Positions 18,001 to 21,031 of a DNA stretch of 64,000 nucleotides are shown here, one piece after another. The first letter of the stretch is position 1. Each line of letters starts with the position of its first letter. This DNA is from Neelides folsomi (taxonomy: Eukaryota > Arthropoda > Collembola > Neelipleona > Neelidae). The stretch spans positions 1-64,000 of the forward strand of contig JAQGBZ010000151.1 in NCBI GenBank assembly GCA_034687125.1. Reading direction: 5' to 3'. The translations under genes and the position numbers were made by a program. The notes under the pieces were generated by a model. The model saw only the letters and a list, made by a program, of their open reading frames with translations, made no database searches and had not been told where the DNA came from.

Positions 18001-19684
18001 ATCAATACTGCTTTAATTTGCTAATAGTTATTATAATGTTCATGTTGATATTTAGTTTCTCTATGAAGCCTTGTCTAGATCAATTCAAGCATAAAAGTAG
18101 TGAACGCTGATCCTCACTCCAGCATACTCAGGCGATATTGTATATCGTAAAAAATAATTCTTTTAGGTACATTACTTGTGTAATTGACATTTTTTTCAGT
18201 AATTCATGTGTAGAATTCCTTATAAGCATAAAACCAAACCCCTTTTAAAACTTTCATTGTTTCAATTGAGACATCTTTTGTATTGCTTTTAACTGGAAGC
18301 CAATTTAATAAAATAGTTGAGGAACAAGCAAACCACAAATGCTACAATTTAATTCTAGGTATAAACATCGCATGTCATTCTTTCTAAATATTTCAGGCTA
18401 TCAAATATGCCAGAATGTACAAATAATTTTAAAGTTTTTAAAAACAATGTATTAATTTAACCCTACGATAAAGTTAAACACAGTTAAAGCTAAATAAACT
18501 TACAAGTTAACTGTATTTGTATTAATGTATACATAGAATAGGCAGGGTTCTGTTCATTCTATAAATAATTAAAGTTCTCGAATTACATAACAATTTTATA
18601 TAACTTTTGTGTATATGGTAGAACTAAAGAATGCATGCGGGTAATTCCAACCACTATGCACTGTACTATATTCTATTAATAATTTCTATTAAAGTTAATA
18701 GACTCCATTATCAATGTCTTGATCATGGAACTAAATGTTAACTACATAATTAAATATTACAAATTGGATGGTGAAATTGATGAATAATTGGTAATAATAA
18801 AATGATCAACGCTACAAAAAAAACAGTCCCTATCATAGGACTCCAATTAGTGCACAACAATCAATCAATAATGAAACAAGGAAAATAATAGAGCAGTAGC
18901 CTAATTGTTAGACAACATAAAAGATGTACACCTAACGAGTATAATTGAATTAAATGAATGATAAATATTTAAATGACGAAGTATTCGAAGACACCAAAAT
19001 TGTCTCTCTACAAACAAAGTCATTACATATATGAAGCCTTTAATTAATTTCATTACTCAACGAAGGTGCTTTTATAGCACGAGCTTAGGAAATTATAATA
19101 GTATGCAATTGCAAATAATAAATTATTATCAAGCAATTATTGCAAATCAATAAAATTGAGCATCAAAATATCAATTTTTGCATATTAAACATTTTGATAA
19201 AACTTTAAACTTTGAATGCATCGGGGCATTTGCAGGTATTCCTCAAAGATTGATTTAAAAATTAATTAATATTAAATTAATTGATCTAAAGATTTTTGCA
19301 TATAAATTAAGTGGATTAACAATACAATGTAATAATTTAACGGTGTAATTTTGTATATTGTAATGTCTTTGTTTGCTTGGTTTGGGAGAGATCGAGTAGG
19401 CGTGGGTGGGGAGGGTGCTTTTGAATTTCGTTTCTCTCCATCTCCGCCACCGAACCCTCCTTTGTCTGCCCTATGGAGGAGCATGAGAAAAGAAGGGACA
19501 TGTCGGTGAGCGGAGGTCCTCTGACTCCGCCCTTGGTTTGCTCATCCAGAGGATTTGCCATTAGAGAAGAAGAAGTGAAGTAAAAACCTGTCTCGGCTAC
19601 AGAGGCAGCGACAAATGCGATACAGAACTTGCTGACAAACTTCGTCCCAGCCGCATCGTCCTTCTGATCCGAAATCGGAGACAT
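15014..19684 (-). CDS. Ucp4: Mitochondrial uncoupling protein 4 (SLC25A27 carrier)
   Basis: Minus-strand exons: 19684-19588, 17614-17469, 17351-17244, 17104-17042, 16920-16796, 16655-16615, 16417-16330, 15509-15476, 15368-15270 and 15145-15014, for 310 residues. The three mitochondrial-carrier repeats carry PLDLTK, PMDLVK and PADVIK. Blocks diagnostic for UCP4 rather than other SLC25 members include [29 protein letters not shown] and the ending GISGVSSF. It is an inner-membrane carrier; UCP4 family members are linked to proton leak and metabolite exchange. The exon at 15509-15476 has only 34 nt. The intron at 17468-17352 uses a GC-AG donor. The start is the only Met before the first helix; it overlaps the drk start codon on the other strand. 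An alternative acceptor inside exon 1 could instead join an unseen upstream exon. Confidence 0.94.
17615..19587 (-). other. UCP4 intron 1, AT-rich
   Basis: A 2-kb intron between the N-terminal exon and the PLDLTK exon. It is AT-rich with no convincing open frame, repeat or RNA gene. Confidence 0.75.
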
Positions 19685-21031
19685 GGAAGCGGTGGCGAAG
19701 CACGACTTCACGGCCACGGCTGAAGACGAACTGAGCTTCAGGCGGGGTGCGGTCCTTAAGGTTAACTAACTAACTTATTTACTTCTTCTCTTCTCTTCAG
19801 TTCTCATGACTGTCACGTGAAATCCGAGGGTGGGAAGTTGGGCCAAAAAATATTTCTGCGCTCTTCGTCATTAACTATTAACACTAACGAGGTTAATCTT
19901 TCATTTCTTTTTACAGATTCTTAACATGGAAGACGACTCAAATTGGTTTAGGGCCGAGTTGGAGGGCCGGGAAGGACTCATACCATCCAACTACATCGAA
20001 ATGAAACCTCACGCTTGGTAACCGCTCTTTTTATTTTTAATACTAATCAGTCGTGTTAATTGACATTGTTTGGTACAGGTACAGAGGGAGGATTACGAGA
20101 GCAGAGGCGGAGAAGTTCCTTACTGACAAAAATGAAGGGAACTTCCTCATCCGTGTCTCGGAATCGAGCCCAGGAGACTTCTCTCTTTCTGTCAAGTGAG
20201 TCATGAAAAAAACATGAGATGGGACGTTGGATTTTTGGGGATTTAATTAATGGGCTTATTAATTTTTTATTTAGATGTCCAGACGGAGTTCAGCATTTTA
20301 AAGTCCTGAGAGACGCTGGAGGAAAATTCTTCCTTTGGGTCGTGAAGTTTAATTCTTTAAACGAGCTTGTCGAATATCACAGGACATCTAGCGTAAGCCG
20401 GAGCCAAGATGTTAAACTCAAAGATCTTCTCCCTGAGGTTCGCCAATTAATTCAATTTGCGTCATTCAACGTTACGTTCATTCATCCTAAATTCCTCCAT
20501 TTCCCAATGTGACTAATTGTGGTTGGGGCGTTTTTTTAGTATGTGAAAGCACTCTATGACTTCAACCCACAAGAGCCAGGAGAGCTTGAGTTTCGCCGTG
20601 GAGATATTATTACAGGTAGAATCCCATTCCTATTAATTATAGTTTAATGCCATTTAAGGTGTTTACATCAATTTAACAATAATCATGATTGTATTATTAT
20701 GTACACGCGTTAGCAAGTTAATATTTTTTATGAGAATGTGTGCTATTTAATAATTATGAATTTTATTTTAGTAACCGACCACTCAGATGAGAATTGGTGG
20801 CAAGGTGTTTTAAATAACCGCACAGGTAAGCATCATTCCTAGAATTCTTTTAATTAGTTAATCTCAATGGCGTGATGCTATATAGTATTACCAAGAATGT
20901 TAATTTGTTAAATCGTATCTTATCATGAAATATGCATTTAATCAGAATGAGAGCCGGGATTAAATTGAATTTGTTAATTTGTATTTTTAGGTCAGTTCCC
21001 TGCAACGTATGTTACGACTTTCGAAAAGTGA
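19683..21031 (+). CDS. drk: SH3-SH2-SH3 adaptor, GRB2/downstream of receptor kinase
   Basis: Exons: 19683-19760, 19917-20017, 20079-20195, 20275-20437, 20540-20615, 20772-20825 and 20991-21031, for 209 residues. The N-terminal SH3 (about 1-56) starts [19 protein letters not shown] and includes the NW and [10 protein letters not shown] blocks. The SH2 (about 58-150) begins [15 protein letters not shown], has the phosphotyrosine-binding [17 protein letters not shown] motif and continues with [17 protein letters not shown]. The C-terminal SH3 (about 155-209) starts [18 protein letters not shown] and ends GQFPATYV. This is the cytosolic adaptor that couples activated receptor tyrosine kinases to the Ras exchange factor Sos. 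The N-terminus matches GRB2 from residue 1, so the start is firm. That ATG shares three bases with the UCP4 ATG on the other strand. Confidence 0.97.

Follow-up and report, generated by a model that had tools for sequence, protein, structure and literature searches.

Within a 64,000-nucleotide stretch of contig JAQGBZ010000151.1 from the collembolan Neelides folsomi (hereafter, the window), two adjacent genes, drk (a GRB2 relative) and a gene for a UCP4-type mitochondrial carrier (hereafter, UCP4), lie on opposite strands with their 5' ends facing and place both of their start codons in a single palindromic CATG. This arrangement had been noticed in an earlier reading of the letters (the sequence-only reading), and direct inspection of positions 19682-19685 confirms that it is real. 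Two base pairs (19683-19684) belong to both coding sequences, more than the single base pair of gene overlap that defines a divergent, 5'-overlapping protein-coding pair; drk and UCP4 are a tight, fresh example of this known class. There is no intergenic sequence whatsoever between the two start codons, which leaves neither gene space for a leader of its own. Overall, we consider it probable that drk and UCP4 form a compact head-to-head pair served by one shared bidirectional promoter region, with coding sequences so close together that their starts share the palindrome. The features on which this rests are:

19682..19685, both strands: palindromic CATG, with the drk ATG at 19683-19685 (+) and the UCP4 ATG at 19684-19682 (-)
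19683..21031, + strand: drk coding span (19683-19760, 19917-20017, 20079-20195, 20275-20437, 20540-20615, 20772-20825, 20991-21031)
19683..19760, + strand: drk exon 1, 26 codons, donor AAG/gttaac
15014..19684, - strand: UCP4-type mitochondrial carrier coding span (5' to 3': 19684-19588, 17614-17469, 17351-17244, 17104-17042, 16920-16796, 16655-16615, 16417-16330, 15509-15476, 15368-15270, 15145-15014)
19588..19684, - strand: UCP4 exon 1, 32 codons plus 1 nt, donor CAG/gttttt

Positions 19588 and 19760, given earlier as the limits of the region of interest, are the exact ends of the first exons of UCP4 and drk, respectively. Both gene models are intact and include a stop codon. The drk model (seven exons, 209 amino acids) has the domain order SH3-SH2-SH3 and the features of a drk/GRB2 adaptor, namely a length of about 210 amino acids and homology from residue 1. 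The alignment to GRB2 (PDB 1gri) pairs residue 1 with residue 1, and that to the Drosophila drk entry 2a37 pairs residues 1-58 with 1-58. The claim that the drk start is fixed by GRB2 homology is thus borne out. The UCP4 model (10 exons, 310 amino acids) contains three Mito_carr repeats (PF00153, three stretches, E 5.3e-67), and its best PDB matches are UCP2 and UCP1, as expected of an uncoupling-protein-type carrier. The more specific label UCP4 (SLC25A27) is provisional, following the sequence-only reading and the general character of the UCP4 C-terminus; the comparison itself covered solved structures.

The UCP4 start was said to be the only methionine ahead of the first carrier helix, and this is what we find. 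Exon 1 encodes residues 1-32 and the best Mito_carr stretch runs from residue 15, hence the carrier domain begins within this exon, and the next methionine (MQIQGE) falls beyond the domain start. It is nevertheless conceivable, if highly improbable, that the UCP4 protein begins further upstream, from a codon other than ATG or within an additional exon, by way of a frame that stays open across drk exon 1; the overlap at the CATG would then be a coincidence. This frame is free of stops for 27 codons above the ATG (to 19765), and the ATG itself has a weak context (T at -3, T at +4). However, it contains no ATG before its stop at 19766-19768, and its openness means little because, of the three reading frames opposite drk exon 1, two lack stops. 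The length of the N-terminus also fits that of UCP1, with 19 residues preceding the match compared with 20 in entry 8g8w, although such lengths are a rough guide (3 residues precede the match in the UCP2 entry 2lck and 73 in 8hbv).

A 751-bp DNA search of the 75.1-Mb assembly (840 contigs) matched the window alone, returning no further copy of the locus, and a second allele or duplicate was rejected on this basis. A long open frame on contig C88, considered as an intronless drk copy, was likewise rejected; by eye, a Src-type tyrosine kinase gene lies downstream of its SH3-SH2 match. Pattern searches of prokaryote contigs with the drk and UCP4 proteins gave 16 and 14 stretches, respectively, none confirmed, and those of viral contigs with the drk protein gave 6, again none confirmed; both sets are uninformative on conservation. 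Word searches of titles and abstract openings found no report of two eukaryotic genes with a common start CATG.

How surprising is such an arrangement? Any start codon preceded by C bears an ATG on the antisense strand. We counted pairs of plus- and minus-strand ATGs in the window at each of 121 offsets, from -60 to +60. The CATG offset occurred 206 times, compared with a median of 25 and a next-highest count of 36. Because CATG is palindromic, it represents the likeliest coincidence of two opposite ATGs once a divergent pair is tight, and one case in the 75.1-Mb assembly calls for no special cause. The shared CATG is unusually tight, yet it is probably an ordinary result of close gene packing. 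Its origin would then probably have been neutral, in that a start codon preceded by C offers a ready antisense ATG, which the second gene may have adopted.

This geometry bears on the two leaders. The drk codons, read backwards, are the bases directly upstream of the UCP4 ATG, and vice versa, and the sequence-only reading had held that each leader, if unspliced, must be antisense to the first coding exon of its partner.

19588..19760, both strands: potential mRNA complementarity, up to 173 bp provided that neither leader is spliced and each is of sufficient length, from the geometry of the exons

For UCP4, the case is stronger than was claimed there. The AGs opposite drk exon 1 would leave leaders of 70, 51, 46, 35 and 21 nt, and because the nearest AG leaves 21 nt, antisense overlap with drk exon 1 is unavoidable through an AG acceptor, whether in cis or in trans. 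A spliced leader (SL) added in trans would thus still leave at least 21 nt; among copepods, such leaders have been reported in calanoids, with no significant matches in cyclopoids or harpacticoids in the available passages of PMC4664967. For drk, the claim holds less strictly. The AGs within UCP4 exon 1 would leave leaders of 80, 78, 74, 57, 32 and 2 nt, and the last of these, an AG only 2 nt before the ATG, could free the leader. It is a poor acceptor, scoring -2.9 in a splice model built from 15 introns and below -4 in one built from 28. The UCP4 leader is free of ATGs for about 120 nt (19685-19804) and the drk leader for about 65 nt (19618-19682), beyond which an ATG at 19615 opens an upstream open reading frame of 6 codons.

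The splice model used here was first built from the 15 introns of drk and UCP4 and was then extended to 28 introns with chaperonin genes (23 of 25 family matches), which offered 18 gaps; 13 of these were added and the other 5 dropped for their low scores. Under this model the donor of drk exon 1, itself a member of the training set, scores 8.0. True introns, left out in turn, gave sums from -6.5 upward with a median of 12.8. For drk, the best leader intron (19236 to 19292; at 56 nt, shorter than all 28 training introns) scored 12.2; for UCP4, the best (20007 to 19874) scored 11.1. At 150 random points the median was 13.0 and the 10th-90th percentile range 8.9-17.9; these points used a 480-nt span, where the drk and UCP4 searches covered 483 nt and 616 nt, respectively, and, being unscreened, may contain real introns. 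No leader-intron signal above that of random points was found on either side.

These scores bear on the principal alternative, which is that one or both leaders are spliced, such that overlap of the mature RNAs would be partial and the antisense question would shrink. Transcription of drk would begin in or to the left of a GC-rich block upstream of its start, for example with an exon ending at 19505, and join at 19603, 19651 or 19681; that of UCP4 would begin within drk intron 1 or past it and join at 19874, 19754 or 19719. The sequence-only reading had likewise named a leader spliced to an acceptor in UCP4 exon 1. Acceptors do exist at 19603 and 19651 (+), as at 19874 and 19754 (-), but the two plus-strand sites are weak (0.7 and -2.3, a level reached by the lowest 7% of the 28 training acceptors), and would leave 80 or 32 nt of antisense leader. 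More generally, the acceptors named for drk score at or below the level of the lowest 7% of true ones, and all of the named sites except 19681 leave 32-80 nt (drk) or at least 35 nt (UCP4) antisense to the coding exon of the partner. The donor TCG/GTGAGC, which would open an intron at 19506, ranks among the top 2.6% of GTs in the 15-intron model but drops to the top 19% in the 28-intron model. An intron running from 19506 to either 19651 or 19681 would remove the ATG at 19615, yet not those at 19473, 19483 and 19500. The UCP4 pair 20007 to 19754 scores 10.5, inside the range of true introns. Conversely, the best drk pair ending within UCP4 exon 1 reaches 8.0 (19236 to 19603), and the best leader-intron pairs on either side are no higher than the random median. 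Taken together, we view spliced leaders as a serious but doubtful possibility.

Several other features of splicing in these genes were observed. Within drk intron 1 (19761-19916, +) lies a second good acceptor at 19801 (score 6.6, 46th percentile), with a pyrimidine tract and a sequence resembling TAACTAAC in front of it, and a good donor at 19892 (score 8.1, 79th percentile). Combined with the known exons, these two sites would imply introns only 40 and 25 nt long, below all 28 known, and splicing of drk exon 1 to 19801 leads, by eye, to an early stop. In UCP4, the frame demands a GC-AG intron for intron 2 (17468, -; CCG/gcgagt), and the acceptor of intron 1 ends in atgaag, without pyrimidines adjoining the AG. 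UCP4 introns 1 (17615-19587; 1973 nt) and 7 (15510-16329; 820 nt) are long, and the remaining introns of the two genes span 61-197 nt. At the other end of the gene, the UCP4 stop codon overlaps an AATAAA signal (14963-15014 region), and a plus-strand frame that, by eye, ends at 14963 would be a tail-to-tail neighbour with about 50 bp between the stops.

The region around the CATG differs from the rest of the window in base composition and includes a small number of candidate promoter elements:

19380..19760, both strands: GC-rich block, 54% GC versus 35% in the window; possible shared promoter/5' region
19729..19734, - strand: TCAGTT, initiator-like, the single perfect TCAGTY on the minus strand of 19300-20000; speculative
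19814..19819, both strands: CACGTG, a palindromic E-box in drk intron 1; candidate promoter element, 0.08 expected per 700 bp

The GC level of the block, whose limits were picked by eye from a 40-bp profile, is reached by 1.2% of 1273 sampled windows of 381 bp. GC content at third codon positions is higher in drk exon 1 than in the other drk exons (19/25 versus 81/176, Fisher p 0.005), and UCP4 exon 1 shows a trend in this direction (18/31 versus 113/261, p 0.13). Less came of the earlier proposal that promoter elements lie within coding sequence: what speaks for it is one perfect initiator-like match, TCAGTT at 19734-19729 (-), against a chance expectation of 0.47, or about 0.5, per 700 bp per strand. 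Speculatively, this element would put the start of UCP4 RNA some 48 nt ahead of the ATG, within drk exon 1. Single consensus matches to promoter motifs prove nothing. A scan for bacterial promoters gave 0 sites and is uninformative for animal DNA.

Under a shared promoter region, both genes would be fired from common open chromatin, in both directions. Transcription of UCP4 would start to the right of 19685 and that of drk to the left of 19682, in or beyond the first exon of the partner, and the resulting mRNAs would be complementary over anything from tens of bases to the full 173 bp. The two genes would usually be co-expressed, and, as a by-product, their translation contexts would be coupled, with drk keeping the strong one. 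A number of points weigh against this account. The block at 19380-19760 lacks CpG enrichment (observed/expected 0.86 versus 0.87), and could belong to drk alone. Core-promoter matches are few, with no evident start for drk (a TATA-like sequence at 19301 (+) and a GC box at 19527). If unspliced and more than about 65 nt long, the drk leader would include the ATG at 19615, hinting at a leader that is short or spliced. Leader introns are still allowed, since the model comprises 28 introns and true introns vary widely, and the transcription starts on both sides are ones that we infer.

Similar pairs are known from other animals. In the available passages of PMC8076222, 582 human 5'-overlapping pairs were identified, and for the 73 pairs analysed expression was higher when the overlapping start sites were used. 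Across Metazoa, overlaps between untranslated regions (UTRs) are preferentially retained and coding overlaps are underrepresented; few divergent overlaps (14/115 pairs) are conserved between the human and mouse genomes, and convergent and divergent overlaps are co-expressed more often than complete ones, according to parts of PMC2330155. A further case is human DLG4/VLCAD, in which the leader of one gene covers 62 bp of the other's coding sequence and both genes are highly expressed together, as excerpts of the review PMC9917990 describe. The published passages on 5'-overlapping pairs therefore appear to lean toward co-expression. This bears on the idea that the two genes regulate each other reciprocally, by promoter competition, polymerase collision or an mRNA duplex, with high drk lowering UCP4 or the reverse. 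The geometry permits such a duplex, and the excerpted review describes promoter competition and other interference at head-to-head overlaps (PMC9917990). However, the same review states that the human study (PMC8076222) found no negative correlation, and the higher expression reported there for human pairs and the co-expression of divergent overlaps (PMC2330155) also argue against it. We regard reciprocal regulation as very unlikely, and forced alternation or antisense control by the overlap, both raised by the sequence-only reading, as speculative.

As in the metazoan divergent pairs of PMC2330155 and PMC8076222, in the portions available, drk and UCP4 are unrelated coding genes that overlap at the 5' end and are read from opposite strands; here, however, the coding sequences meet at their start codons, and the transcript overlap is a predicted one. 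The likeness to DLG4/VLCAD (PMC9917990, in part) is that of a 5' UTR lying over a coding sequence, whereas in the present case both leaders face the coding exon of the partner and the start codons overlap. Pairs with bidirectional promoters share the divergent orientation, a GC-rich block and start sites predicted to lie less than 1 kb apart, but their promoter is usually intergenic, and no sequence separates the drk and UCP4 start codons. In prokaryotes too, divergent overlaps are a small minority (331, compared with 12,737 codirectional and 1,890 convergent), with 274 divergent overlaps measuring at least 5 nt and 57 being shorter; these cases differ in coming from bacteria and archaea, which lack introns, and CATG goes unmentioned in the available passages of PMC2174442. 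Two other candidate precedents were rejected, judging from the parts at hand: PMC8493703 concerns shared convergent exons and PMC3848588 leaderless mRNAs.

Elsewhere in the window, a 477-amino-acid open frame at 310-1743 (+) contains repeated cysteine-containing segments and long Gly-Ser-Asn repeats, and its product resembles, by eye, chitin-binding (peritrophin-like) proteins. In the assembly, contig C742 (15,157 bases) carries COX1 (Pfam); when it is translated by the invertebrate mitochondrial code, nad2 and cox2 can also be made out by eye, on the same strand. It is probably most of the mitochondrial genome and, together with the drk match, suits an arthropod.

The shared CATG also ties together the contexts in which the two start codons are read. 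The context of drk is GACATGG (G at -3, G at +4) and that of UCP4 is TCCATGT (T at -3, T at +4), with C at -1 in both. Because both ATGs occupy one CATG, the +4 and +5 positions of each gene complement the -2 and -3 positions of the other, and the second drk codon, GAA, fixes the T at -3 of UCP4. By the general Kozak rule the context at drk is strong and a T at -3 is a translation handicap, which we infer would fall on UCP4. A bolder proposal would be that the CATG links the two genes physically, with the promoter of each in the first coding exon of the other and the reciprocal context holding UCP4 translation below that of drk, selected across relatives as a built-in expression ratio; we hold out very little hope for it.

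Together, these observations identify drk and UCP4 as a clean, minimal coding-coding divergent overlap in an animal. Because neither gene has room for a private leader, the pair could be used to distinguish interference from mere packing in 5' overlaps. It also illustrates why an excess of CATG in overlaps of this kind is to be expected in the absence of selection, and that two starts in one CATG must trade start context, a property that can be computed in any genome.
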